Below, in pieces: positions 21,779-49,849 of a stretch of 64,000 nt of DNA. Position numbers and translations under genes: made by a program. The stretch is from assembly GCA_027023425.1 (NCBI GenBank), contig JALVVL010000010.1, forward strand, positions 48,931 to 112,930. Reading direction: 5' to 3'. How positions within the stretch are numbered: position 1 is the stretch's first letter; each line of letters begins with the position of its first letter. Below the pieces are notes generated by a model. That model ran no database searches and was not told the origin of the DNA. It saw nothing but the letters and a program-made list of their open reading frames with translations. The stretch comes from Anaerolineales bacterium (GTDB lineage: Bacteria; Chloroflexota; Anaerolineae; Anaerolineales; DRMV01).

Positions 21779-22012
21779 AGGTCGTTAGGTCGTTAGGTCG
21801 TGGGTCGTTAGGTCGTGGGTCGTTGGGTGGAGTAGAAAGCCACAGAGGACACAGAAACGCCACAGAAAACACAGAAAAAAATCTGTGCTAATCTGTGTAA
21901 TCTGTGGTTTTTCTCTTTGCGCTCTCTGCGTCTCTGCGTTACTCTTGGCGTTCTTGGCGTCCCTTGGCGCCCTTGGCGTTAACCTCTTGGCGTTACCATC
22001 CACATTATAGCA
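21779..22012. repeat. Dispersed intergenic repeat cluster (reverse orientation)
   Basis: gtcgttaggtcgttaggtcgtgggtcgt; aaatctgtgctaatctgtgtaatctgtggttt; ggcgttcttggcgtcccttggcgcccttggcgtt. Confidence 0.85.
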
Positions 22013-22033
22013 CCCAACCCGCATAGAGAAAAA

Positions 22034-22066
22034 AGCAGGCTGAGGGGTAAGTCTCCTCAGCCTGCT
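22034..22066 (-). terminator. Rho-independent terminator of the arsR-cytochrome-yedE operon
   Basis: AGCAGGCTGAGG ... CCTCAGCCTGCT followed on the minus strand by TTTTTTC. Confidence 0.85.
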
Positions 22067-22086: not shown

Positions 22087-23358
22087 CTATCCACAGCCGC
22101 CGCCAGCAACGCCCTTAGGCTTTTGCAGTTTAATCTTGGGCTTGAACTTGAGTTTTTCAAGCATTTCCTCAGCCCATTCATCATTGATAGAAAGGTCAGA
22201 AGCGCGATAGCGGTCTCCAAGAGCACCCTTGAAGTAATAATTCAAACGCTCCACCTCCGAAACCGAAGACGGCGCCGGCGCGCACAAGCCTTTCTCAATA
22301 TCCTCATCCCCAAACGTCATTATCAGGCTGTTGAAACCGCCGCTGAGGATGTAAACGTTTGGCACGCCTTCGGCTTCTAAAATCTTCCAGCCTTCGGTGG
22401 ACTTGCCCTCATCATCGCTGACCAACACAAACACCGTCAGCGGCACCTCCTTCACCTCTTTCTTGAGAATGGGAGCATAAGCCTCCAATTCGTTTAGGGG
22501 AATGTGATGCTCCCATTTCAAGTGGAAGAGGTTGTAAGAATAGTCATCGCGCACGTCAATCACAACCGTATTGGTCTTGTGGTCCTGGAGCGAAGAAAAG
22601 AGTTCGGCAGGAGAAATTTGCACTTGGTACTGCTCAAGAAGCGGCGCTTTCTTGGGGGCAACCCGCGTCCACTTCTGCTGCCAAGTAGGCCAAATTGCCC
22701 ACACAATCAAAGCACCAGCGACCAGCACAATCGCGACCCTGCCAACCCAGCCGCGCTTCAGGAAGGGATCGCTATCCTCACGGGCATACTTGCGCACCAG
22801 CACATCGTTCAGCCAGAAGAGGAGCACGGCCAAGATTACGAAGATGGTAACAGTAAGGCCGGTGCTGATATGAAACACATCCATCACCGTGAGACGCCCG
22901 TAGAAACTGTCGTTGTAGAAGTAGTGGAACAGCGGCTCAGTTTCGCTGAAGAGAAAAGTGCCAAACAAGCCGCCCAGCACAAAGAACCATGCGTCCTTCT
23001 TCAGCGAAACCGAAGAGACAATTGAGGTGCCGGGGCAGTAACCGCCGATGATTATGCCCAAGCCCATCAACAGGCCGCCGACTATGCCGGGCCAAAGGTA
23101 AGTCGGGTCAACCCAAATCACATCGTAATCCAAAATGCCCAGCGCAACCGACCCAAAGATGAGCACCATTGCCACCATAATGGCGGTGAACATTGCCTTG
23201 ATTACGCGGCCGTTGCGGAAGTAGAACTGCCCCGTAAGCACATACGAATTGCTAAAGCCGGAGATTTCCAACCCAAAGCCAAAGGCAAAACCTATCAACA
23301 CCTCTATTAGGAAAACTCCGGTCTTGCCGAGAGCGTTGATTGAAGCCAGTGGGAACAT
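22087..23358 (-). CDS. YeeE/YedE (sulfur transport, TsuA-like) membrane protein fused to a rhodanese-like domain
   Basis: FGLEISGFSNS, GGYCPGTSIVS; soluble C-terminal part with VVIDVRDDYSYNLFHLKWEHHIPLNEL; C-terminus GVAGGGCG. Confidence 0.85.
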   Translation of the reverse strand: MFPLASINALGKTGVFLIEVLIGFAFGFGLEISGFSNSYVLTGQFYFRNGRVIKAMFTAIMVAMVLIFGSVALGILDYDVIWVDPTYLWPGIVGGLLMGLGIIIGGYCPGTSIVSSVSLKKDAWFFVLGGLFGTFLFSETEPLFHYFYNDSFYGRLTVMDVFHISTGLTVTIFVILAVLLFWLNDVLVRKYAREDSDPFLKRGWVGRVAIVLVAGALIVWAIWPTWQQKWTRVAPKKAPLLEQYQVQISPAELFSSLQDHKTNTVVIDVRDDYSYNLFHLKWEHHIPLNELEAYAPILKKEVKEVPLTVFVLVSDDEGKSTEGWKILEAEGVPNVYILSGGFNSLIMTFGDEDIEKGLCAPAPSSVSEVERLNYYFKGALGDRYRASDLSINDEWAEEMLEKLKFKPKIKLQKPKGVAGGGCG

Positions 23359-23368
23359 GGCATCCTCC

Positions 23369-23920
23369 TCAGTTCCAAATCTTCCGCACGAAGTAGGCCA
23401 CGATAAAGGCAATGGTAAACATTACCAAGCCAATAGACCAACTTCCGGCCGAGAGCGACGCACCGCCGGACATAACTTGCCCCGAAGTACAACCGCGAGC
23501 CATCCGAGCGCCGTAGAGGAAAATCGCGCCGCCGATGAAGGCAAGCAGCCAGCGGGTTTTCTCGCTCACGCGGGGGCCTTTGGTGGTCTCAACCTTGAAG
23601 CGGCCGAAGAGAATTGAGGCTGTTAGCGCGCCGATTATCAACCCCGTCACCTCAAAGGTGATCCAATTGTTGAAGGGATTGCGCGAGCCTCCGGCCACTT
23701 TTATCAACTGCGGCACTCGGTCAACATGGGATGGAGCAACCAAGTTGACCAAAAAGCCGTTTATCCGAGCGAAAATCGCCGAGGCACCCAAGCCGTTCGC
23801 CGTCAACATCAGCGAGAGGAAAAGGGTAACGCCGAGTATCGCCCCGCCGATGTAGGGGTTGGCATATGGCTTGCGCGGACGCTCGGTCAGTTTCTGAAAC
23901 CAAGACTTCTTTTCAGACAT
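23369..23920 (-). CDS. YeeE/YedE family membrane protein (sulfur transport)
   Basis: YGARMARGCTSGQVMSGGASLSAGSW motif; adjacent to the second YedE. Confidence 0.85.
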   Translation of the reverse strand: MSEKKSWFQKLTERPRKPYANPYIGGAILGVTLFLSLMLTANGLGASAIFARINGFLVNLVAPSHVDRVPQLIKVAGGSRNPFNNWITFEVTGLIIGALTASILFGRFKVETTKGPRVSEKTRWLLAFIGGAIFLYGARMARGCTSGQVMSGGASLSAGSWSIGLVMFTIAFIVAYFVRKIWN

Positions 23921-23941
23921 TGTCCACTCTCCTTGGGACGG

Positions 23942-26389
23942 TTACGCCTGCTCGGCGTCGGTGTCGTCCGCCACTTCCACGTCTTCCCAACCGGTTATCA
24001 TGGCAACGATGTAGTCAAAGATGCCGTGCCCGGTGGTGGTCAGGTAGACATGGCCTACCACAAACGCCGCTATCAGCCAAGCGTCAAGCGTGTGAGTAGC
24101 CGCCACGTAGGTCATCGTTTCACTGCCAAGCAGTTGAGTTACAGTTTGCGGCCATATCCTTGCTGCCCACAGCCAGAGACCAGTTATCATCTGCACAGGT
24201 AGCAGGAAGAAGATGAGCCCAAAGTAAGCCATCCGCTGCAACGGGTTCAGTTTGTTCCAGTAACTCTTGGTAAACGGATGAGGCTCACCTTTGAAAATGC
24301 CGCTAAGGTAGAACTTTGCCTGCTTGATAGCCCGCTGTATGTAGCCTTTGGGGTTGGGGATGAACTGCCCAATGTACCCAATGGCTATGAAGTAGTACAT
24401 TGCCAGCAGGAAGTTGATGACCAAAATCCAGCCAAAAACGGTGTGCAAGAACACCAAGTAGCGGAACTTGGCGCCAGCAATGCCAAACCACTCAGGCTCG
24501 TGGATCGCTAACCCGATGAGCAAGAGCAAAATGATGCTCGCCATCTGCGTCCAGTGCCAGAAGCGCTCGGCGCCGGTGTAGAGGTATTCGCGGCGGGTCT
24601 TGCCGTGATGCGGGTGATGTTTCTTCGCCGCCACATACCGTAGCGCACCGTGGAAGGACACGCCGAGGAGCGTACCGATAAAGGCGAGCACGCCGATGAG
24701 GTCAATCCACCAAATGTGGTGATAACCAGCCACATACACTTTGTCCAAATTGTTGGAGGGCTGGTACAGGACTTTTCCGTCCTTGACTTCAACCTTTCCA
24801 CTGCCGTTCAGGTCGTTATCGTTGAAGGAAACCTGAGCGCCCGCGGGCACAAACGCCGCCAATTCCAGCGACTTGCCAATCCGCGAATCCTCGCCGTGGC
24901 AGGCTTGGCAGTTGTTGAGCGCGAAGTCACTCTGCACCACGCCGTGGTGGATGGGGTAAGCCTTCACCACGCCCACGATGTGAGCGCCGCTAAAGCCGAG
25001 GTCAGCAAGCCGCTTGGCGATTACCTGCTCTTTAGCCTGCGAATCAATCACCAACTCGTCGGCGGTCAATTTGCCGTCCTTGTTGGCGTCAAATGCCTTC
25101 ACCACATCGGCGGCATAGGTCTTGCCGTCGGGCATCCATGCCTTCTTGACAGCATCGGCGCTGATGGGTGCGTCCTTGCCATCCTTCTTGTAAACCCATT
25201 GGAAGGTAGTGATGAGGTTGTAGGGAGCAAGTTTACCGTCGCTGTTGCGCTTGAGCACGGCCGGTTCGTAGCCCTTCACCACATGCGAGACGGTGAACGG
25301 CTCGGCAGTGTCCGCGCCCTCAGGCGCTTGCGCCGTGGCTTCTACGCCGCGGTACACCACCTTTTCCTCGCCGTTGGGCAAGACCACGGTCTTGTCAACC
25401 GTTTCCGCCGCCGGGCCGTAAAGATGAGGCACGTGGCAGGTCTCGCATGCGACCTTGGACATGTGCAGTTTCAGGTACGGCAGCCAATCTTTGTGGCTGG
25501 CGACGGGGTCATGGCAACTTTCGCAATTCTCTTTGGTGAGGATGTGGCTCGGCTCTTTGAGGAACTCGCCCGGGGAAGGATGGCGAGGCTCAAAGGTGAG
25601 GTAGGAAGGCAATTCAGAGGCGCGGCGGGCGCGCGGGCTGTTTGCGCTTGTGTGGCAGTCCACGCATTGCAAACCGCGCTCGGCGTGCACATCCCACGCA
25701 TAGGTTAGTTTTTCCTTGCCAACTATGTCCATCCCCGAAAACGAAATTTTTTGCGGGGAAACCACAACGCCGGTTGTGAAGGTCTGCCATTCGCTCTCGC
25801 CAACTTTGTTGATGATGAGCGGGCTCTTCATATCCGTGTGGACCACGCCATGACACTGAGCGCAGTTTGCGTTTGTGGGGCGGTGGATGTCAACATAGTC
25901 GGACTTCAAGCGGCCATCAGGCCAGAAAGCATCGGCGTTCCACTTCCAGCCCTTGTCGGTCTTTTCCACCACGCCCCTGCCGAGCAAGAGGGCGGTATCG
26001 GCCCATTTGCTACCCTGAGCGTAAGCCTGCTGGTAGGCCTTCCAGTTTGCGCCGTCGCTGTGGCACACATAGCAGGCTTTGGTCAGCCCCGCAAAGCCGG
26101 GGACATTCTCGGCTTTTTGGTGGGTGGCGTGGGTGGTGATGAACTCGGTATCGTGACATTGGCCGCATGTTTTAGCCAGAGACAGCGGCTCACCGCTTTC
26201 GCTGACCGGCACGCCGTTAGCGTCCAGCAAAATGTAGTCGGGGTGCATGGGTGAAGGGGTAGCCTGACCGCCGGCGCTGCCGGGCTTTTCGCCCTCCGCA
26301 ACCGCCTGATGCACGCCCAGGGCTAACCCAGCCGCCATGACCGCGACAAGCGCAGTAAGCAACAACAAGGGTATCCATTTTCGTCGCAT
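23942..26389 (-). CDS. Seven-heme c-type cytochrome fused to a C-terminal cytochrome-b-like membrane domain
   Basis: Signal/anchor; CXXCH motifs CGQCH, CYVCH, CAQCH, CVDCH, CESCH, CETCH, CQACH; TM region ERFWHWTQMASIILLLLIGLAIH and other His-containing helices. Confidence 0.88.
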   Translation of the reverse strand: MRRKWIPLLLLTALVAVMAAGLALGVHQAVAEGEKPGSAGGQATPSPMHPDYILLDANGVPVSESGEPLSLAKTCGQCHDTEFITTHATHQKAENVPGFAGLTKACYVCHSDGANWKAYQQAYAQGSKWADTALLLGRGVVEKTDKGWKWNADAFWPDGRLKSDYVDIHRPTNANCAQCHGVVHTDMKSPLIINKVGESEWQTFTTGVVVSPQKISFSGMDIVGKEKLTYAWDVHAERGLQCVDCHTSANSPRARRASELPSYLTFEPRHPSPGEFLKEPSHILTKENCESCHDPVASHKDWLPYLKLHMSKVACETCHVPHLYGPAAETVDKTVVLPNGEEKVVYRGVEATAQAPEGADTAEPFTVSHVVKGYEPAVLKRNSDGKLAPYNLITTFQWVYKKDGKDAPISADAVKKAWMPDGKTYAADVVKAFDANKDGKLTADELVIDSQAKEQVIAKRLADLGFSGAHIVGVVKAYPIHHGVVQSDFALNNCQACHGEDSRIGKSLELAAFVPAGAQVSFNDNDLNGSGKVEVKDGKVLYQPSNNLDKVYVAGYHHIWWIDLIGVLAFIGTLLGVSFHGALRYVAAKKHHPHHGKTRREYLYTGAERFWHWTQMASIILLLLIGLAIHEPEWFGIAGAKFRYLVFLHTVFGWILVINFLLAMYYFIAIGYIGQFIPNPKGYIQRAIKQAKFYLSGIFKGEPHPFTKSYWNKLNPLQRMAYFGLIFFLLPVQMITGLWLWAARIWPQTVTQLLGSETMTYVAATHTLDAWLIAAFVVGHVYLTTTGHGIFDYIVAMITGWEDVEVADDTDAEQA

Positions 26390-26401
26390 GGCTACACTCC
26401 G

Positions 26402-27865
26402 TTAGTGGTTGTCGTCAAAGCGGCCGCCCCACTTCATCGGGTCACCCGGGTAACCCAGAGCCTGCCAATCAAGGCGACCGTTCGGGCTGTGGCAGTCAGC
26501 ACATTGAAGCGCCTGTTCCTTGGGGCGCACCATGTGGGTCTGCGGCCAATACATCACCGTTTGGGTGAAGGCAAAATGCCCGCTGTACTTCAGGCCAGTG
26601 TAAGGTGCGGCAATGCGGAAAGCCAAATCCCAATCAAACTTGCTCCAGAAGCCATTGGGCACCGAAGCCGTGGAAGGAGCCAGCAAGTAGCCATAAACCG
26701 TGTCGTAAGGCTGCAAGGTATGGTTGACCTTGAACGGGAAAATCTTGGCAGTCGGGTCGTTTATGCTACCGGCAGGCTTGTTGATGTAGGTAACGCCGTT
26801 GTGGTTAATCGGGTCGCCTTCCACATAGCGCTCCGATTCATTGCCGTTGAACCACAGGTAGGTAGGAATCATGTTCTTGACATAGACGAAACTACCCTTG
26901 ATCTTCAAGTAGTGGAAGTGGTTCTGCGGGCGGTCTTGACCAGCCGTTGACCAGTCCCAATAAATTTTGGTGGGGACTTCCTCCGCCGTTTCGGGCACGT
27001 GGCAAGTTTGGCAAGCGACCGACTTCACGTGAGCGTTCAAGCGGGCGTCCTTGTGCGGGGCGTTGCTGTGGCAGTCGGTGCATTGCACCTGCTCAGAAGG
27101 AGCAACCTGCGGGTTGAGGTTGATGAGTTTGCCTTTGATTTGGTGGTGCGAAGTGCGGTGGCAGTCGGTGCACTGCATGTTGTAGCGCCCCATGTGGACG
27201 TCCAAATCGGGCGAGGGGTGATATAGGGCGCTGCTGATGTCGCCGTGCTTGACGTTGTCGCCACCGCCGCCAAAGGCATGGCATTTCAAGCAGTTATCGC
27301 GCGTCGGATTGCGCACACTTTTAGCCGCCGCTACCAAATTCACGCCCTTGGCAGGCTTGCCATAGGGACCACGACCGTAAAGGTTGGGGTCGGCATGGCA
27401 GACCAAGCAGTCAACTTCTTCCGGCTTCTTCAAGTCTTCGGCAACCTGCTGGTTGCTCATGCCCTCTTCCCAGAAATAGCCGGTGTGGCATTTCATGCAC
27501 ACACGCTGGTTGGTGCGTGTGCCGATGCAGAAATTGTTGAAAGAATGCAACTTACCAAAATGTACCGGCTTATCGTGGCCCGGGACCTTATAGCCTTTCA
27601 CGCTGTCCCAGCGCCAGTGGGTCGTGTGCATGAAATCCGAAGCCGCGTTGGGATGACACGAAAGGCAGGTTTTGGTCACGTCCTCGCCGCTCTTGAACGG
27701 GCCCTTGATAATTGCCGAGTGATCCACATGCGGCGGATGCTTGGGCAGGTTCGCCCAAGGGTTGTCCGCGGGCTGTTGGGGCTTAGGCCATAAAATGACC
27801 ACTGGCACTATTAGCACCAGCAAAATACCCAACAAGCCCAACCACCAAAGAGATTTTTGCTTCAT
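26402..27865 (-). CDS. Octaheme c-type cytochrome, octaheme tetrathionate reductase (OTR)-like
   Basis: Eight CXXCH (CLSCH, CMKCH, CLVCH, CLKCH, CTDCH x2, CQTCH, CADCH); OTR-like SFNNFCIGTRTNQRVCMKCHTGYFWEEG and DFMHTTHWRW. Confidence 0.8.
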   Translation of the reverse strand: MKQKSLWWLGLLGILLVLIVPVVILWPKPQQPADNPWANLPKHPPHVDHSAIIKGPFKSGEDVTKTCLSCHPNAASDFMHTTHWRWDSVKGYKVPGHDKPVHFGKLHSFNNFCIGTRTNQRVCMKCHTGYFWEEGMSNQQVAEDLKKPEEVDCLVCHADPNLYGRGPYGKPAKGVNLVAAAKSVRNPTRDNCLKCHAFGGGGDNVKHGDISSALYHPSPDLDVHMGRYNMQCTDCHRTSHHQIKGKLINLNPQVAPSEQVQCTDCHSNAPHKDARLNAHVKSVACQTCHVPETAEEVPTKIYWDWSTAGQDRPQNHFHYLKIKGSFVYVKNMIPTYLWFNGNESERYVEGDPINHNGVTYINKPAGSINDPTAKIFPFKVNHTLQPYDTVYGYLLAPSTASVPNGFWSKFDWDLAFRIAAPYTGLKYSGHFAFTQTVMYWPQTHMVRPKEQALQCADCHSPNGRLDWQALGYPGDPMKWGGRFDDNH

Positions 27866-27880
27866 AGCCGTCTCCTTGAA

Positions 27881-28246
27881 TTAGGATTGGGACTTTGCGG
27901 CCACGGTGTCGCGCGCCTCCAAAACGCTGGCATGATGCGAAAGGCGCTCCCGTAGCACTGCCCTCATCAGATCCAGAGCGCTTATCAGCCTCTGGTCGGC
28001 TACTTCGTAGAAAACTTTCACGCCTTCACGCTTGGCGCTTACTATTCCCTGCTCGCGAAGCAGTTTTAAATGCCGCGAGGCGGTAGGCTGGCTCATGCCC
28101 AGCCGTTCCGCCAATTGGCTAACATGCGCTGGCCCCTCCGCCAGCGTGCACAGTATGGCCACCCGCTGAGGATGCGCCAACGCCGAACACAAATCGGCTT
28201 GCAAAGGCGCTATTTCCTCTCTCAATTCGTCTAAATTTCTACCCAT
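27881..28246 (-). CDS. ArsR-family transcriptional regulator
   Basis: ALAHPQRVAILCTLAEGPAHVSQLAERLGMSQPTASRHLKLLREQGIVSAKREG; start at MGRNLDEL preferred (AGGA upstream), alternative start 28270. Confidence 0.9.
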   Translation of the reverse strand: MGRNLDELREEIAPLQADLCSALAHPQRVAILCTLAEGPAHVSQLAERLGMSQPTASRHLKLLREQGIVSAKREGVKVFYEVADQRLISALDLMRAVLRERLSHHASVLEARDTVAAKSQS

Positions 28247-28304
28247 GGGCGCATCTTTCCTTTTATGCACCTATACACATACTTCATTTTCATCTGCAAT
28301 TAAG

Positions 28305-28346
28305 AGTATAACATCCCATGAAAAAAATGTGAGTGACAAACGTCAC
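28305..28346 (-). promoter_or_regulatory. Predicted arsR operon promoter: TATACT -10 with Crp/FNR-type palindrome GTGACAAACGTCAC
   Basis: Palindrome 28333-28346; TATACT (minus) 28305-28310; palindrome centre 34.5 bp from the downstream end of the -10, class II geometry. Confidence 0.6.
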
Positions 28347-40451: not shown

Positions 40452-43400
40452 ATGGATAGCACAAACCTGCTCGTCTTGGGCACTACATTAGCCTCTACCG
40501 GCGCTGGGCTGTGGTTAGTAGCATGGGCTCTTGCTCATGTTACAAAACCCGAGGATGCGGTCAACGTAAAAACCGCTCCTCTTACGCCCATTCCTGCGAC
40601 AGAAGAACCAAAGTCGGATAGCGCCGTTTTGATAGTGACTGAAGGGGGGAAGGTAGCATACATTGATAATCAGGCGCGCGAGATGCTCAACCTTAGCACG
40701 GCCGACTTCCCTTCATTGGACTACATACTTGAACACACCCATCCAGAGGAAGAACTGCTAAAACTGTGCAACAGCCCCGGCCAAGCCACGCTAACCATCG
40801 GCTCCACACCGGTAGAAGCAACATCTTATCCCGTGCCATATAACGGCACAAAAGCAATGTTAATAGCCCTGCGGCCATTTGGCTCTCTAAAAGAAGAAAA
40901 ATCTTCTCTGGGCACAACAATCCAAACGCTAAATTTGTTTGCCGATCTGGCGCAATCGGTCAGCAAAGAATTAGACGTAGAAAAAGTGATGCACGCTTTG
41001 GCGCGTGCAGTCAACAGGGTAATACAAACCGACGCCGTACGCATTTCACTTCTTGACGAACAGGGAATACTCCACCCATACGTTTTCCACGGCGCTCCGG
41101 GGAAAGTGTACGAAGCAAGGACAATCCCGCCGCACCCGCCCACAAGCGGGTTGGCCAAGCACGTGCTCACTACCAAAAAGCCCCTGCTGATTCCCGACGT
41201 ACAAAACCTACCCGAAAAATTTAAGGCCAACCCGCCGCATCAACCGCGCGGCACTTACCTCGGCGTGCCAATACTTATAGACGACAAAGTAATAGGCCTT
41301 ATAGAAGTCGGCAAGGCCGAACCAAACGCATTTTTTGGCATTCAACTTGAGTTTCTCACCCTATTGGCAAACATGGCTGGGGCATCGGTGCGCAACGCAC
41401 ACCTATTCACCGAAACCCAAAAACGCCTGCGCGAACTCCAAAGCCTCACCGACCTCGCCGCCGCCATAAGCGGCTCAAAAGAACTACGCACACTGGTACA
41501 AAAAATTCTGGAAAGCATCCGCCCGCTCACAAAAGCAGAAATTCTCGGCCTAATCTTATACGACGAAGCCCACCGTGACCTTGTAGCACAAAAGCCATTC
41601 CTCGGCCTGCCGGAAAGCATAATATCCAACTACCGCGGCCATGTGGCCTCAGGCTCAAAAGCCGAAGCAATTATCCAAAACAGAGAGCCAATTGTTGTTG
41701 AAGCCAACGCCCCGGAAGACGAGCGGATAAAAGCCTTGGGCTTCTCAAACTTTTACCTCGCCGCAAGCATAGATGCCACAGTGCTGTACCCCCTCCATTC
41801 AGGGCGGCAGTTTCTGGGCTATTTACAAATAGCCAACACGCCCGAGCGCCCGCCATTCACCGAAGAAGAGCGGAAAGTGGTGGCCTTGGCGGCCTCGCAA
41901 ATAGCGCCGTTATTAGAAAATGCCGTGCTCTTCCAACAAGCACGGGAGCGCGCCCGCAGAGCAGAAGCGCTGCGGCGCGTAGCAAGCCTTGCCGCCTCAT
42001 CGGCAAGCATAGATGAACTCCTTAAGTTCTCAATTTTAGAATTAGCCCACTTGCTAAATGTAAAAAAGGCGGCTGTTCGGTTATTGGATGAAGACAGTAA
42101 CCGCCTCGTACCTCACCTGCCTTCTCTCGTTGGAATTCCAAAAGAGTTAGCAAAAAAACTCGGCGAGTCTTCCGCTCAACATACGGATTTTGCCAGCACT
42201 GCCACCCATAGCGGCAAGGCGCTTATTTCCAAAAACGCCCAAACCGACGAAAACTTGCCACAAGTTTACCGTGAACTATTGCAAAATTTCCACGAAGTAA
42301 AATCTGTGCTGATAGTACCCCTAAAAACCGAGCAAGGCGGCCTCGGGGAACTTATTTTCCTGAGCGAACAAGAAGGACGGTTTGACGAAAACGATCTCAA
42401 ACTTGTAAGCGCCACAGCCGCACAAATCGCACTTTCACTTGAACGCCAACGTTTGCTTTCCGAAAGCGATATTAGCCTCCGCCGCCGTGTGGAAGAATTG
42501 AGCACGCTCGCGCATTTAAGCCGCGAACTTGGCCTGCTTTCTTCTCTAAACGAAGTGCTGCGCTACTCCCACAAACAGATGCTTGCCCTAACAAACTCAA
42601 CGTGCGGAGCAATTTTCTTGCTTCGCAAACAGCAAGGCAACTACAAAATCAAGCATCTTGTGGCCGATGAAGGCTGCCAGCGCGCCCTTTCGGCGCTGGA
42701 TAAAGAAACGTTGGAACGCGGGGAACCCCTTTCCGTGGAAGATTACAGCACCGATGTGCTCCAACCGCCCCACGAAGGAGTGCGTTCTTCGCTATCGCTT
42801 CCCCTAAAATACCAAGACAAGATTCTCGGTGTAGCGCACCTCCATTCCAACAAAGCAAGGCACTTTACAACCAAAAGCATTCACCTTGCCCGACTCATAG
42901 CCCAACACGTGGCCGTAGCCATCGGCAACGCGCAGCGCCAACAAGACCTGCTTGAAGAAAACGCCGCACTGCAAAGCAAAGCACACGCCCTCACTTTGCT
43001 GCGCAATTTCCTACGCTCCGAGCAGCCACTAAGCGACACCAAAGGCGCAATAAGCAAACTCATAAGTGCCCTTCACCAGATCACCCCCTTTGACGCCATC
43101 TGGGTGGGCGAATACACCCCAAGCAAAGGCACAATCAGCGCCATAACCTCGGTTGGCTTCCAACCCGGCGAGCCGCTCCCTTGGGATTCCCTAAGCCTGT
43201 TGCTGGAAGATGAATTCAACCGCGCGGGAGTTTATTTCATCCCGGCCGAAAAGCGACCACCGACGCCTTCTAACCTGAACCTTCCACAACCCAAAAACCC
43301 AATCCTCGGCCAAGATGAAGAAAACTCATGGCGGCAGGATGACCTATTGCTCGTGCCGCTTAGGGCTTCAAACGGACAGGTTATTGGCCTGATTTACTTC

Positions 43401-46400
43401 AACTCACCGCGCAACGGCTTGCGGCCATCCGCCACCGAGTTGGAAATCATCCGCCTGTTTGCCGAACAAATAGCGTGGCTGATGGAGGCACACCAAACCG
43501 CGCAAGCCCTGATAAAACGACAAGAGGCACTTGAAAAGCAAATAAAGCAAACCGACGAAGCACTCCGTACCGCACAAAAAGATACACCGCGCTGGATGCG
43601 CAAAGACCTACAGCAAACGATTGACCGCTACCGGCTTGGTCAACGAGCAAATCGTCTGCACAAAGGGCTCAACATCGCGGCGCTGGTAAACCAACAGCCC
43701 AGCCGCTCAGCAGTTTTAGACGCTCTTGGCACCCAATTGATAGAACAATTTGGGTTCAACTATTTGCTAATTGCCGCTCCGGCCGCCGGCACCAAAGAAG
43801 GCCTGCACCTTGAACAAGCCTTTGGCGATTTGCCCACCGACCTAAAGATAGAAATTCTGCTTGGGCAGCGCAATCCCCTTTCCGAAGTTGCACGCAAGGG
43901 CGAAGTAATCATAGAACCCGATATCCAGCGCAACAACAAATGGGCAAATTCACCGCTACTGGAGAGGCTTGAAATCAAGGGATTTGTTGCTTTCCCAATT
44001 CACACCGAACAAGCCGGGGAAGAGACAACAAACCAAAAGGTTATCAGCCATGTAGTAATGGCGGGCTCGTGCACACCTTTGCTTGAATTTTCAGAGGATG
44101 AAAGCGCGATCTTCCAACTGATAAGCCGCCAAGTAGGTATAACGCTTGACAACCTAACCATGCTGGCACGCACCGAACGGCGACTGCGCGAAGCCGCCTT
44201 GCTTTTGGAATTTAGCAGTCAACTCGGCGTTTTAGACCCAGAACGCATCCTCAACACGTTGCTCCACAGCACCCTTGGCGTCCTGCAAAACGTGCACGCC
44301 GGCTTTGTAGCGCTATGGCAACCGGAAGAAGAAATCCTAAAGCCGGTTGTGGCAACAGGCTATGCGCGTTCCGATGAAATAAAAAACATCGTCCTGCCCA
44401 AAGAAAGCCTGCCCGCAAAAGTAATGTTTGAAGGGCGCAGCAGGATAATAGACGAACTGGACTTTGCCTCCGCCTACCCATTTGACGCCGACAACCTGCT
44501 GCGTTACCGGACGGCCACGGCCGAGCGCCTGCCGGTCTCCAGCATGATGGTGCCCATACGCTCCGGCGAAAACTCGCTCGGCGTGATTGTGCTGGACAAT
44601 TTCAACACGGCTTCGGCTTTCACCGCCGAGGACGAAAAACTGGTACTTTCGCTAACCCAGCAGACGGCTTTGGCATTAGAAAACGCCCGGTTGCTCAACA
44701 CAGCCGAGCGCCGCGCCTCTCAGTTGCAAGCGCTTGCAAAAGTATCTACCAACATAACTGCCCACATCCTTTCATACGAAGAAGTGGCAAAATCGCTGCT
44801 TGACCAATTAGCCCAAGTACTGCCTTACGATCGCGGCACGCTGTGGCTGCTTGAAGGCAACCGGCTGACGGTGCATGATGCGCGTGGCTTTGAAAACGCT
44901 CAGGAAATCATCGGCATCTCCACAAATGTGGAAGACAGCGCCCTGTTTCAAGAAATGCTCAGAGACAAACGGCCTTTGGTTGTGGACGACATAACCAAAG
45001 ACCCGCGCTTCCCCCAAGCGCAACCGATACCCTACCGCTCATGGCTCGGCATCCCGCTGGTGCTCAAAGAAAAAGTGCTGGGCGTAATAGCGCTGGAAAA
45101 AGACAAAGCGCGGTTCTTCACAGCAGACTGGGTAGAAACGGCAGAAACGTTTGCCGCACAAGCCGCCGCCGCGCTTGAAAACGCCCGGCTCCACGAAGAA
45201 ACCCTCCGCCGCACCAACGAATTAGACGAACGGACGCGCAGGCTTGCTCTTGTTTACCAAGTAACTTCCAACCTCGCAACCTCTTTAGACCCCCAATACA
45301 TTGCCCGCTACACCGCTGAGCGCCTGCACGAAGCACTCGGCAAAGGCAAAGTAATAACCCTGCTGTGGCACGAAAGCAAACCTACCGTCGTCGCCGAATT
45401 CCCCGAAAGCGCTAAAACCGAAAACGCATCGGAAATCCCCGCGGAAGCACCGCTTTGGGAACACCTGCGGGAATCCGGCGGCATCTACAGAGCCAAAAAC
45501 GCACTTGACGATGAGGAATTGGCACCGTTGCACCCACTAATTGCCGCCCACAAGGCAAAAAGCGCCACCTTGGTGCCCATGATCGCAGGGCAAAGCCTGA
45601 TGGGAGTGATGGTGTTGCTGACTGGCGAAGAGGAAGAAGTAGACGCCGATGAGTTGGAACTTGTGAAGACATTGGCAAACCAAGCCGCAGTTGCCCTCCA
45701 AAACGCTCGGCTATACGAAGAGACGCGCCGATTCTCCGAAGAATTGGAGCGCCGCGTGGAAGAGCGCACAGCCGAACTTCAGCGCGAGCATCACCGCTCC
45801 CAAACCCTCCTTAAAATCATCGGCGAACTGGCCGCCAGTCTGGACTTAGACCAAGTACTAAACCGCACGCTGGCACTGCTGAACGAAAGCCTTTCGGCTG
45901 ACCACAGTAGCATTTTGCTCGCCCGCCCGGGAGAAAAAACGCTCTTCCTGCGCGCCGCCTACGGCAAATCCGGCCGGTTGCCGCTCGGCGGAAGGCCTAC
46001 CAACATCTCCGCAACCGATTCCCTCGCGGGCTGGGTCATCACGCACCGCCAGCCCATCCTGATAGGCGATTTACAAGCCGACCCACGCTGGCGAAAAGGG
46101 CTTGAAGGTGAAGAACTACAACACCGTAGCGCCATCTGCGTCCCGCTGATTTTTGGCGAAGAGGTGCTCGGCGCGCTGATGATTTTCCACGAAGAGCCCG
46201 ACCACTTCACCGAATACCATTTGGATTTGGCAATGGCAACGGCCAAACAAATGGCAATCACCATCAACCAATCGGAAATTTTCCGCTTGGTAAACGAGCA
46301 AGCGGAGCACTTGGGGCGAATGGCGCGCGCACAAGAAATTGAAGCCCGGCGGGCAAAAGCAATCCTTGAAGCAATTGCCGACGGCGTAGTGGTAACCGAC

Positions 46401-47459
46401 AAACGCAACAAAATAACCCTTTTCAACCCCTCTGCAAGCCGCATTTTAGGAATCCCGGCCGAAAAAGCCATCGGTCAGCCGCTTGCACACTTTGTAGGCT
46501 TTTTCGGCGCGGCAGGCCGGCAGTGGATGGAAACCATCCATATGTGGTCTGAAAACCCCGAAATGAGCGCCGAGGGCATAACTTACGAAGAGCAAATAGA
46601 GATGGAAGACGGGCGTGTAATTTCAGTACACCTTGCGCCGGTTTTCTCACACAACGAATTCTTGGGCACGGTTTCCGTTTTCCGCGACATCACCCACCAA
46701 GTTGAGGTTGACCGCCTGAAATCTGAATTCGTCGCCACTGTGTCACACGAACTGCGCACCCCGATGACGGCCATCAAAGGCTATGTGGACATTTTGCTAA
46801 TGGGCGCAGCCGGGCCGCTCACCGAACAACAAAGGCAATTCCTAAACACCGTCAAATCCAACACCGAGCGCCTCAACCTGTTAGTGAGCGACTTGCTTGA
46901 CATTTCGCGCATTGAAGCAGGGCATATCTCGCTTATCAAAGAAGAAATTGACCTTGGCAAACTCATCCAAGAAGTAGTTGCCGAAGTAAAGCGAATCGCC
47001 AAAGATGAAAACCGCCCCATGAATTTTGAAGTAGAAATTGCTCCTGACCTCCCTCACATCTACGCCGACCGTGAGCGCATCCGGCAAGTTGTTGAAAACT
47101 TGGTGGAAAACGCCTACCGCTACACCTCCGAAGGCGGCAAAATAACAGTGCGGGCATACCCGCTCAATGAGGCCGAAATCCAAGTGGACGTGATTGACAC
47201 CGGCATAGGGATTCCACCCGAGGAACAAGAGCGTGTCTTTGAACGTTTTTACCGAGGCGAAAACCCACTGGTAATGGCATCGGCAGGCACTGGCCTTGGC
47301 CTCTCAATTGTGAAAACATTGGTTGAAATGCACAACGGTGAGATTTGGCTCAGCAGCGAAGGAATCCCCGGCAAAGGAAGCACGTTCTCCTTCAAACTGC
47401 CGGTCAAAGGCGAAAACAATGACGAAACACAACACTATGCGCCACCATCCGAGGAGTAG
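40452..47459 (+). CDS. Giant multi-GAF/PAS hybrid sensor histidine kinase (2335 aa)
   Basis: About ten GAF-like modules by eye, one PAS (ILEAIADGVVVTDKRNKITLFNPSASRILGI), HisKA FVATVSHELRTPMTAIKGY, HATPase DTGIGIPPEEQERVFERFYRGE and GTGLGLSIVKTLV. Confidence 0.92.
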   Translation: MDSTNLLVLGTTLASTGAGLWLVAWALAHVTKPEDAVNVKTAPLTPIPATEEPKSDSAVLIVTEGGKVAYIDNQAREMLNLSTADFPSLDYILEHTHPEEELLKLCNSPGQATLTIGSTPVEATSYPVPYNGTKAMLIALRPFGSLKEEKSSLGTTIQTLNLFADLAQSVSKELDVEKVMHALARAVNRVIQTDAVRISLLDEQGILHPYVFHGAPGKVYEARTIPPHPPTSGLAKHVLTTKKPLLIPDVQNLPEKFKANPPHQPRGTYLGVPILIDDKVIGLIEVGKAEPNAFFGIQLEFLTLLANMAGASVRNAHLFTETQKRLRELQSLTDLAAAISGSKELRTLVQKILESIRPLTKAEILGLILYDEAHRDLVAQKPFLGLPESIISNYRGHVASGSKAEAIIQNREPIVVEANAPEDERIKALGFSNFYLAASIDATVLYPLHSGRQFLGYLQIANTPERPPFTEEERKVVALAASQIAPLLENAVLFQQARERARRAEALRRVASLAASSASIDELLKFSILELAHLLNVKKAAVRLLDEDSNRLVPHLPSLVGIPKELAKKLGESSAQHTDFASTATHSGKALISKNAQTDENLPQVYRELLQNFHEVKSVLIVPLKTEQGGLGELIFLSEQEGRFDENDLKLVSATAAQIALSLERQRLLSESDISLRRRVEELSTLAHLSRELGLLSSLNEVLRYSHKQMLALTNSTCGAIFLLRKQQGNYKIKHLVADEGCQRALSALDKETLERGEPLSVEDYSTDVLQPPHEGVRSSLSLPLKYQDKILGVAHLHSNKARHFTTKSIHLARLIAQHVAVAIGNAQRQQDLLEENAALQSKAHALTLLRNFLRSEQPLSDTKGAISKLISALHQITPFDAIWVGEYTPSKGTISAITSVGFQPGEPLPWDSLSLLLEDEFNRAGVYFIPAEKRPPTPSNLNLPQPKNPILGQDEENSWRQDDLLLVPLRASNGQVIGLIYFNSPRNGLRPSATELEIIRLFAEQIAWLMEAHQTAQALIKRQEALEKQIKQTDEALRTAQKDTPRWMRKDLQQTIDRYRLGQRANRLHKGLNIAALVNQQPSRSAVLDALGTQLIEQFGFNYLLIAAPAAGTKEGLHLEQAFGDLPTDLKIEILLGQRNPLSEVARKGEVIIEPDIQRNNKWANSPLLERLEIKGFVAFPIHTEQAGEETTNQKVISHVVMAGSCTPLLEFSEDESAIFQLISRQVGITLDNLTMLARTERRLREAALLLEFSSQLGVLDPERILNTLLHSTLGVLQNVHAGFVALWQPEEEILKPVVATGYARSDEIKNIVLPKESLPAKVMFEGRSRIIDELDFASAYPFDADNLLRYRTATAERLPVSSMMVPIRSGENSLGVIVLDNFNTASAFTAEDEKLVLSLTQQTALALENARLLNTAERRASQLQALAKVSTNITAHILSYEEVAKSLLDQLAQVLPYDRGTLWLLEGNRLTVHDARGFENAQEIIGISTNVEDSALFQEMLRDKRPLVVDDITKDPRFPQAQPIPYRSWLGIPLVLKEKVLGVIALEKDKARFFTADWVETAETFAAQAAAALENARLHEETLRRTNELDERTRRLALVYQVTSNLATSLDPQYIARYTAERLHEALGKGKVITLLWHESKPTVVAEFPESAKTENASEIPAEAPLWEHLRESGGIYRAKNALDDEELAPLHPLIAAHKAKSATLVPMIAGQSLMGVMVLLTGEEEEVDADELELVKTLANQAAVALQNARLYEETRRFSEELERRVEERTAELQREHHRSQTLLKIIGELAASLDLDQVLNRTLALLNESLSADHSSILLARPGEKTLFLRAAYGKSGRLPLGGRPTNISATDSLAGWVITHRQPILIGDLQADPRWRKGLEGEELQHRSAICVPLIFGEEVLGALMIFHEEPDHFTEYHLDLAMATAKQMAITINQSEIFRLVNEQAEHLGRMARAQEIEARRAKAILEAIADGVVVTDKRNKITLFNPSASRILGIPAEKAIGQPLAHFVGFFGAAGRQWMETIHMWSENPEMSAEGITYEEQIEMEDGRVISVHLAPVFSHNEFLGTVSVFRDITHQVEVDRLKSEFVATVSHELRTPMTAIKGYVDILLMGAAGPLTEQQRQFLNTVKSNTERLNLLVSDLLDISRIEAGHISLIKEEIDLGKLIQEVVAEVKRIAKDENRPMNFEVEIAPDLPHIYADRERIRQVVENLVENAYRYTSEGGKITVRAYPLNEAEIQVDVIDTGIGIPPEEQERVFERFYRGENPLVMASAGTGLGLSIVKTLVEMHNGEIWLSSEGIPGKGSTFSFKLPVKGENNDETQHYAPPSEE

Positions 47460-48826: not shown

Positions 48827-49849
48827 ATGCCCACAACGGCAAAAACAAAAGCGACTTTGGAGCAGTCGGTGAAAAAGCCGAGGGAATTCATCAAGTTAGC
48901 CCTATGTTGCGCCATAGGGCTGTTTTTATTGAGCGCATGTGTGCTTGGGAACGGCGAACATGCCGCCCCACACACGCCTACCGCGCCAGCCACACCCAGA
49001 TTTTCCGCGCCAGCGCCTGCCTCACACACAATAGCCTTCCACAACGCCTCTTCTGCGACAAGCACACCACACCCCCCAACCGTCACCCCAACTCCGACCT
49101 CACCACCTCCCCCCGCCTGCCTGCAAAAGCCCGGCACAATCCAAGCAGGCTGGCTGCCCGACAAAGCCCTCCCAACCCCCATGGCAGTGCTGGTTTACCT
49201 GCCGCCATGCTACCATGAGCACAAAAACCAAACCTACCCCGTGCTTTACCTTTTGCACGGGCAAGGCTACTCACAGCAACAATGGGTGAGGCTCGGCGCA
49301 ACCAGAACCGCCGATAGGTTAATAGCCGCGGGCGAAGCACCGCCGTTCATAATCGTTATGCCGCGCGAACTCGTCTGGAAAGATCCACCCAAAACCGGCT
49401 TTGACGAAGCATTTTTGCGAACTCTAATGCCGTGGGTGGATAACACTTTCCGCACGCGTCGCGAAAGGCGCTACCGGGCAATTGGCGGCCTTTCGCGCGG
49501 CGCCGCGTGGGCAATCCATTTCGGCTTGCAACGCTGGGACCTGTTCGGCAGTATCGGCGCTCACAGTCCCCCCGTCTTTTGGTCGGATGTAAACAGCGTA
49601 AAACGCTGGCTGTTTTCCATTCCCTATGGAAAATGGCCGCGCATCTACATGGACATTGGCAACAAAGACACCCCTGAAATAATGGACTCAGCAGTTTGGT
49701 TTGAAAAAGAGGTGCTCACCCCCAACGGCATACCGCATGAATGGCATCTGAACCAAGGCATGCACAACGAAAAATACTGGTCGGGGCATGTTGAAGAATA
49801 CCTGCGGTGGTACACCGCGCCTTGGAAGGAAAACGAGGCCAGCCGATGA
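48827..49849 (+). CDS. Putative esterase (enterochelin esterase/esterase D-like fold), predicted lipoprotein
   Basis: LALCCAIGLFLLSAC lipobox; VLYLLHGQGYSQQQW; AIGGLSRGAAWAIHFGLQRWDLFGSIGAHSP. Confidence 0.8.
   Translation: MPTTAKTKATLEQSVKKPREFIKLALCCAIGLFLLSACVLGNGEHAAPHTPTAPATPRFSAPAPASHTIAFHNASSATSTPHPPTVTPTPTSPPPPACLQKPGTIQAGWLPDKALPTPMAVLVYLPPCYHEHKNQTYPVLYLLHGQGYSQQQWVRLGATRTADRLIAAGEAPPFIIVMPRELVWKDPPKTGFDEAFLRTLMPWVDNTFRTRRERRYRAIGGLSRGAAWAIHFGLQRWDLFGSIGAHSPPVFWSDVNSVKRWLFSIPYGKWPRIYMDIGNKDTPEIMDSAVWFEKEVLTPNGIPHEWHLNQGMHNEKYWSGHVEEYLRWYTAPWKENEASR

Follow-up and report, generated by a model that had tools for sequence, protein, structure and literature searches.

A five-gene operon of an Anaerolineales bacterium probably specifies a quinol-driven membrane enzyme that reduces sulfane-sulfur compounds and is connected through a redox arm to a sulfur channel. 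The analyzed DNA (the window) is a stretch of 64,000 nt, positions 48,931 to 112,930 of the forward strand of contig JALVVL010000010.1 (GCA_027023425.1). The operon occupies positions 22087-28246 of its minus strand and contains the genes of an ArsR-type regulator, an OTR-family octaheme cytochrome, a heptaheme–cytochrome b protein designated HepB, and two YedE proteins, YedEa and YedEb (Table 1). The original prediction of five closely spaced minus-strand genes ending in a single strong terminator holds: all five are present, the gaps between them are 10–21 nt, and the terminator lies at the end of the operon.

Table 1. Features of the operon and its flanks, in window coordinates.
Feature	Coordinates	Strand	Remarks
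Rho-independent terminator: GCAGGCTGAGG hairpin and T-run	22029..22065 (about)	-	Downstream of the last gene (YedEb); fold z-score -4.1
YedEb: corresponds to the N-terminal half of YeeE/PmpB-type transporters (Cys108 in GGYCPGT, equivalent to TsuA Cys91), extra helix, rhodanese-like domain, GGGCG C-terminus	22087..23358	-	
TGT codon for Cys422, the penultimate residue, in the GGCG arm	22093..22095	-	Replaced by UGA (selenocysteine) at five related loci
YedEa: corresponds to the C-terminal half of YeeE/PmpA-type transporters; Cys144 of RGCTSG (equivalent to TsuA Cys293) is invariant	23369..23920	-	PF04143; TsuA structures 6leo/6lep/8j4c
HepB: OTR-like heptaheme domain without catalytic heme 2, followed by a fused cytochrome b resembling PhsC/b561	23942..26389	-	
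OTR-family octaheme cytochrome c with an N-terminal membrane anchor	26402..27865	-	TIGR04315, 1sp3 match, eight CXXCH
ArsR/SmtB-type regulator	27881..28246	-	PF01022, NF033788; ATG 28246 most likely start, GTG 28270 possible
Palindrome GTGACGTTTGTCAC, candidate operator	28333..28346	.	~25 nt upstream of a -10-like TATACT (28305-28310)

The OTR family had been suggested for the octaheme protein, and an HMM search bears this out: the score against TIGR04315 is 503.6 bits at a curated cut-off of 375, and the Shewanella OTR (SO4144, PDB 1sp3) is matched at E=5e-121. All eight CXXCH motifs were counted, and Cys64, Asp150, and the heme-2 ligand Lys153 of 1sp3 correspond to C113, D203, and K206 of the window protein. 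The equivalents of Cys64 and Lys153 are kept in 67/67 OTRs of related cassettes, whereas the Asp150 position is occupied by Asn in 60 of the 67, so catalysis may differ from that of the Shewanella enzyme; this substitution was counted against the proposed reductase. The N-terminal hydrophobic anchor of the window protein is a further difference from Shewanella OTR. On the OTR tree, read by position, two clean clades can be seen, the cassette and the classical one, the former being separated with support of 100/99. Cassette OTRs are fixed to HepB and the YedE pair, whereas the partner of other Chloroflexota OTRs is a stand-alone cytochrome b561. An OTR has been named in Anaerolineae bins (PMC7887784).

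HepB had been read as a seven-CXXCH protein fused to a cytochrome b, and both parts were found, the cytochrome b at the C terminus. Profile comparison of HepB with OTR gave a probability of 98.9% (E=1.7e-17), and the heme absent from HepB is OTR heme 2. This heme-2-less OTR nature did not appear in the original prediction. A Foldseek search with the HepB model matched the cytochrome b part and nothing for the remainder; the homology with OTR therefore rests on the profile comparison, and the outcome was among the points counted against the proposed reductase. A seven-heme OTR relative without heme 2 is already known in Methanosarcina, the electron conduit MmcA (PMC11024163); however, HepB differs in its fused cytochrome b, and its score for the MmcA model TIGR04314 is only 52.6 bits at a cut-off of 250. 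The b domain resembles the cytochrome b of thiosulfate reductase and HyaC/FdnI. It is a quinol-type cytochrome b, and HepB is a plausible quinol-side partner of OTR, as had been predicted.

The two YedE genes had been interpreted as two transporters. Both exceed the PF04143 gathering score, but the proteins are complementary, one matching the C-terminal and the other the N-terminal half of a single YeeE/TsuA-type transporter, and thus probably form one transporter rather than two. Such halves as separate proteins, each with a conserved pore Cys, are known in the YeeE–YedE family (PmpAB, TsuA, SoxT). Equivalents of both TsuA Cys91 and Cys293, which are reported to be indispensable in TsuA (PMC11582611), were found in the pair, as in the PmpAB type; the pore Cys of YedEa is kept in 72/72 sequences in the alignment of relatives. 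The scores are far below the TsuA equivalog cut-offs (42.4 vs. 400 and 21.1 vs. 645). The start of YedEb was moved from TTG 23412 to ATG 23358, giving a protein of 423 aa. This protein differs from the known family members in its extra helix, rhodanese-like domain, and GGCG arm, all predicted on the outer side.

The rhodanese-like domain without a catalytic Cys and the GGC(U)G arm, together the key part of the system, were absent from the original prediction. The rhodanese fold (PF00581) lacks the catalytic Cys in 68/68 sequences and does not correspond to an active rhodanese. The C terminus is a near-invariant GGCG-COOH (65 of the 67 YedEb proteins longer than 380 aa; GGGCG in the window protein), and no other protein among 1490 ORFs has such a tail, which is disordered in the structure model. 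A Foldseek search with the YedEb model matched the rhodanese domain and did not find TsuA; the topology therefore rests on charge distribution, which, by the positive-inside pattern, places the rhodanese domain, the tail, and the hemes on the same side, predicted to be outside the membrane. SoxY, a protein of the oxidative Sox system, has a similar GGCGG arm (PMC6067878). As in SoxYZ, a Cys with glycines on either side lies at the C terminus of YedEb, in a tail predicted to form a flexible arm outside the cytoplasm. Unlike in SoxYZ, no SoxY domain was detected (rhodanese is the sole above-cut-off match in the C-terminal region in a search at E<=10), the arm extends from a transporter's rhodanese-like domain, and selenocysteine (Sec) can take the place of its Cys.

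In five loci (L112, L114, L127, L129, and L130), a UGA codon stands in frame at the place of the tail Cys (GGGUG); three of these loci have UGA at the pore Cys as well. SECIS-like hairpins lie downstream of UGA in the Sec-type loci. SelB was above the cut-off in the L112, L114, and L127 (G284) genomes, in pieces in that of L130 (G168), and below the cut-off in that of L129 (G244). The features of selenoproteins, namely UGA at the Cys column, hairpin, tRNA-Sec, and SelB, were thus found for the Sec members, with tRNA-Sec coming from the L112 and L114 genomes only. Given Sec at both the tail and the pore position, together with this machinery, both cysteines are probably reactive. The YedEb proteins of L112 and L114 at first appeared to lack the GGCG end; this was rejected, both ORFs being interrupted by UGA.

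We propose that HepB, OTR, and the YedE pair would act as one complex. The cytochrome b of HepB would oxidize quinol, and electrons would pass through its seven hemes to the membrane-anchored OTR, where the reaction would take place at the Lys-ligated heme 2, beside the conserved Cys64 equivalent. YedEa and YedEb would make up a single YeeE/PmpAB-type pore, with the catalytically Cys-less rhodanese-like domain and the flexible tail of YedEb outside the membrane. The penultimate Cys or Sec would serve as a swinging arm, taking up sulfane sulfur from the pore or delivering it there and offering it to OTR for reduction; alternatively, the arm itself would be re-reduced by OTR. Persulfide, polysulfide, thiosulfate, or polythionate may be the substrate, and ArsR would switch the operon on a thiol or sulfur signal. 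A bolder version, which we hold only tentatively, is a new respiratory sulfur machine in which the transporter's own external Cys/Sec arm moves sulfane sulfur back and forth between the multiheme site and the pore, couples transport to quinol oxidation, and gives OTR its missing physiological role.

The cassette is carried by many Chloroflexota. Conserved synteny, which had been singled out as worth surveying, was found: counting only relatives with sufficient flanking sequence, the order OTR–HepB–YedEa–YedEb is fixed in all (OTR 68/68, YedEa 76/76, YedEb 66/66), and the arrangement is thus beyond chance. An apparent absence of OTR from L058, L100, and from 23 loci was an artifact of over-extended HepB ORFs and heme-driven HepB matches, and the recount gave the 68/68. 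No description of the cassette was found in the papers searched, part of which were judged by title and abstract, with subscription papers and preprints outside the search. A sister module, ArsR–cytochrome–YedEa–YedEb–PhsA-like reductase, was found in 14/19 loci; here a Chloroflexota PhsA-like enzyme adjoins a similar ArsR and YedE pair, which supports sulfur chemistry. Like the Psr/Phs polysulfide–thiosulfate reductases, the cassette is proposed to be a quinol-linked sulfur reductase, but with a heme enzyme in place of a molybdenum enzyme.

The same complex might run oxidatively, with OTR oxidizing sulfane sulfur or thiosulfate carried by the GGCG arm in a SoxY-like manner and electrons passing via HepB to the quinone pool. 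The likeness of the arm to that of SoxY suits this direction, as do DsrA, present in the cassette-bearing Thiobacillus, Burkholderiales, and L114 genomes, and a flavocytochrome c sulfide-dehydrogenase-like (FccB-like) gene recognized by eye beside the Thiobacillus cassette. However, OTR and the PhsC-like cytochrome b are components of the reductase type, a PhsA-like enzyme is used in the sister module, and neither DsrA nor TusA was detected in the window's genome; we regard oxidation as unlikely, though less so than the other alternatives. DsrA in the Thiobacillus and Burkholderiales genomes, the FccB-like neighbor, and the failure to detect TusA and DsrA in the window's genome were also counted against the proposed reductase.

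Joint ArsR and Crp/FNR-type control had been predicted; the ArsR part fits the sulfur context, while no Crp/FNR gene was recognized by eye among the neighbors. ArsR has one invariant Cys in an alignment of 56 relatives, whereas the sulfur-sensing BigR/SqrR type needs two, and its score for that type is 67.4 at a cut-off of 155. The palindrome was found with at most one mismatch in 18/43 upstream regions of ArsR-bearing cassettes (1.5% in shuffles) and in 0/11 ArsR-less loci, and so may be the ArsR operator; the conserved form GTGACnnnnGTCAC might be a site of the Crp/FNR type or one for ArsR. ATGCAT operators of the ArsR type showed no clear enrichment in the upstream regions. An ArsR-type regulator with one invariant Cys in a small, conserved operon would also suit detoxification or redox homeostasis, in which extracytoplasmic polysulfide, persulfide, or protein disulfides are reduced to protect the envelope and not for main respiration. 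The tail with its penultimate Cys/Sec is likewise reminiscent of mammalian thioredoxin reductase, which has a C-terminal GCUG arm. A big quinol-linked multiheme chain would be costly for that purpose alone, which makes such a role rather improbable.

Handling of Se, Te, or As oxyanions, or selenium supply, is very unlikely, despite Sec in some members and a weak similarity of YedEb to YedE selenium-transporter models. The window's genome retains the cassette with no tRNA-Sec detected (the best RF01852 match is tRNA-Ser) and no SelB above the cut-off; selenium supply for selenoproteins is thus not its common role. Shewanella OTR also reduces nitrite and hydroxylamine in vitro (PMC4484225, PMC11024163), which was counted against the sulfane-sulfur reductase (PMC4484225) and would suit an ammonifying enzyme with incidental YedE genes. 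This is the least probable reading: wherever the flank suffices, the YedE pair occurs together with the rhodanese domain and the GGC(U)G arm, and no nitrogen gene was recognized beside the cassette in the neighbors looked at.

Through the cassette, one entire OTR clade is linked to what is probably a quinol oxidase, to a sulfur transporter, and to a redox arm, so that its physiological substrate can be put to the test. The predicted arrangement is new: a sulfur channel would offer its cargo on an arm, the Cys of which is exchanged for selenocysteine in some lineages. The cassette also suggests a widespread, unrecognized pathway of sulfur respiration or sulfur handling in Chloroflexota of the Anaerolineae type, which are uncultured and common in sediments, aquifers, and sludge.

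The original prediction of five close-packed minus-strand genes ending in a strong terminator was borne out, with spacings of 10–21 nt between the genes. The true start of YedEb is probably the ATG at 23358, because the conserved part of its relatives begins there. The low-complexity ORF directly after the operon, DAKNAKSNAETQRAQREKPQITQISTDFF, has the appearance of a dispersed intergenic repeat translated as if it were coding. Elsewhere in the window, a giant sensor histidine kinase of 2335 aa has about eight GAF domains together with PAS, HisKA, and HATPase_c.

Features of the operon and other window features discussed in the text
Feature	Position	Strand	Remark
ArsR-type regulator	27881–28246	-	first in transcription order
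Octaheme cytochrome (OTR)	26402–27865	-	second in transcription order
HepB, heptaheme–cytochrome b protein	23942–26389	-	third in transcription order
YedEa	23369–23920	-	fourth in transcription order
YedEb	22087–23358	-	fifth in transcription order
Terminator, strong	about 22029–22065		after YedEb
Low-complexity ORF	21785–22024	-	
Palindrome	28333–28346		upstream of cassette
Sensor histidine kinase	40452–47459	+	

An HMM search confirmed the predicted family of the octaheme protein: by sequence it is an octaheme tetrathionate reductase (OTR), scoring 503.6 bits against TIGR04315 (cutoff 375) and aligning along almost all of its length with the Shewanella OTR structure 1sp3 (E = 5e-121). Equivalents of 1sp3 Cys64 and Lys153 are kept in 67/67 cassette OTRs, a set that includes one classical OTR (one outside the cassette) and omits one cassette row; at the equivalent of Asp150, the window OTR has Asp and 60 of the 67 have Asn. 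In 1sp3 numbering, Cys64 and Asp150 are presumably catalytic residues, and Lys153 is the heme-2 ligand. The Lys ligand of heme 2 has been described as a catalytic residue of OTR (PMC11024163).

HepB is itself related to OTR in profile comparison (98.9% probability, E = 1.7e-17), its hemes 1–6 aligning with OTR hemes 1 and 3–7; outside this alignment, motif order suggests that its heme 7 is the counterpart of OTR heme 8. HepB thereby resembles an OTR without the catalytic heme, a design also reported for MmcA, an electron conduit (PMC11024163). A b561/PhsC-like cytochrome b makes up the C-terminal part of HepB. Classical OTRs of the same bacteria are paired with a separate cytochrome b of this kind. 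One such pair, with a stand-alone cytochrome b561 (L034:6525–8850), lies directly upstream of a full cassette and is collinear with it. At another locus (L032:10248–12563, on a contig shared with L085), a divergently oriented 15-CXXCH protein adjoins the cassette; its N-terminal part is a classical OTR, followed by an extra multiheme tail.

Searching 85,462 species genomes with HepB yielded at least 495 relatives. Among the best 80, selected by HepB similarity, synteny is conserved: OTR lies upstream in 68/68 loci with enough sequence, YedEa (76/76) and YedEb (66/66) lie downstream, and ArsR is present in 50/64. In a separate YedEb search, 18 loci were read in detail, and YedEa, HepB, and OTR keep the same order in all 17 clear of a contig edge. 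Nearly all carriers are Chloroflexota MAGs; five loci are labelled Pseudomonadota or KSB1 (L058, L097, L100, L113, L117). In the order to which the Thiobacillus MAG (L100) belongs, only 1 of 120 genomes has the cassette, so these copies may stem from lateral transfer or from binning error. In that MAG, the gene after the cassette (L100:12804–14105) reads by eye like a flavocytochrome c sulfide dehydrogenase flavoprotein. In the OTR tree, where two rows carry wrong cassette/classical labels, cassette OTRs form one clade separate from classical OTRs (support 100/99), and a Lysobacterales copy is nested within Chloroflexota.

The palindrome GTGACnnnnGTCAC could be an ArsR site or a Crp/FNR-type site. 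With at most one mismatch, it occurs in 18/43 upstream regions, against 1.5% after mononucleotide shuffling (p about 6e-22 by a binomial test that ignores kinship among loci). It is found in 0/11 entries from loci without an adjacent ArsR, L085 being counted twice (Fisher p = 0.01, with different anchor windows in the two sets). The cassette ArsR has a single invariant Cys; the window ArsR did not pass the BigR model.

Both YedE genes belong to the YedE family (PF04143), as originally predicted, but not as two transporters: YedEa aligns with the C-terminal half, and YedEb with the N-terminal half, of both PF04143 and the TsuA structures, and together they probably form a single split transporter. 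PmpA and PmpB have been described in the same way (PMC11582611), as two halves that each contribute one of the pair of Cys required in TsuA. Apart from UGA cases, the pore Cys is invariant in YedEa (Cys144, 72/72) and YedEb (Cys108, 68/68). The membrane part of YedEb is followed by a rhodanese-like domain whose catalytic-loop Cys is missing in 68/68 sequences. GGCG-COOH ends 65 of the 67 YedEb longer than 380 aa, the other two (L043, L068) being cut by contig ends; no other ORF ends this way among the 1490 of at least 150 aa that these loci contain. The predicted model shows a disordered tail (pLDDT about 31, versus about 95 for the rhodanese domain); alternating positive charges predict domain and tail outside the membrane, on the side of the hemes. 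The tail resembles the GGCGG arm of SoxY (PMC6067878); however, Pfam finds no SoxY domain in YedEb, and this is therefore likeness rather than membership.

In two loci (L112, L114), both conserved YedEb Cys codons are in-frame TGA. The wider survey added TGA at the tail in L127 and L129 and at both positions in L130; L128 is the L112 contig again, with the same length and sequence. In the class sample of 249 genomes, 4/40 near-full-length YedEb contain UGA. Hairpins with 6–7 bp stems follow every UGA at roughly 12–18 nt, the internal one bearing a GGUC loop. Genomes of L112 and L114 have tRNA-Sec (anticodon TCA), and SelB is above cutoff in 3/5 genomes of UGA-bearing loci; neither was found in the window's own genome. 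Among the selenoproteins named in review PMC13188914 are a YeeE/YedE protein and a TIGR04315 octaheme protein; its passages considered here do not mention the GGC(U)G arm. The Cys-to-Sec swap is the best sequence evidence for reactivity of the arm and pore Cys, which are probably both chemically reactive.

The sequences themselves show the gene content and order, the conserved residues, the UGA codons, and the Sec machinery. We infer a complex in which electrons would pass from quinol through HepB to OTR, while the YedEb arm would ferry sulfane sulfur, the putative substrate, between pore and OTR; the direction of transport is likewise part of this proposal. The main rival is a complex working in the oxidative direction.

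DsrA and TusA gave no match in the window's genome (about 94% complete). A sister module, found in 14/19 loci examined (L155, L157, L159–L161, L163–L167, L170, L172–L174), comprises ArsR (detected in 11/14), a multiheme cytochrome that is NapC-like by a weak Pfam match, small YedEa and YedEb, and a PhsA/PsrA-like molybdoenzyme. The latter scores 586 bits against PhsA (cutoff 694) and matches the polysulfide/thiosulfate reductase 2vpw (E = 1.7e-134). In 10/14 sister modules, a UGA (Sec) coincides with the YedEb pore Cys or lies close to it, and contig G284:C98, from the genome holding L127, carries cassette and sister module 2.3 kb apart. Although an association, this favours sulfur over nitrogen chemistry.
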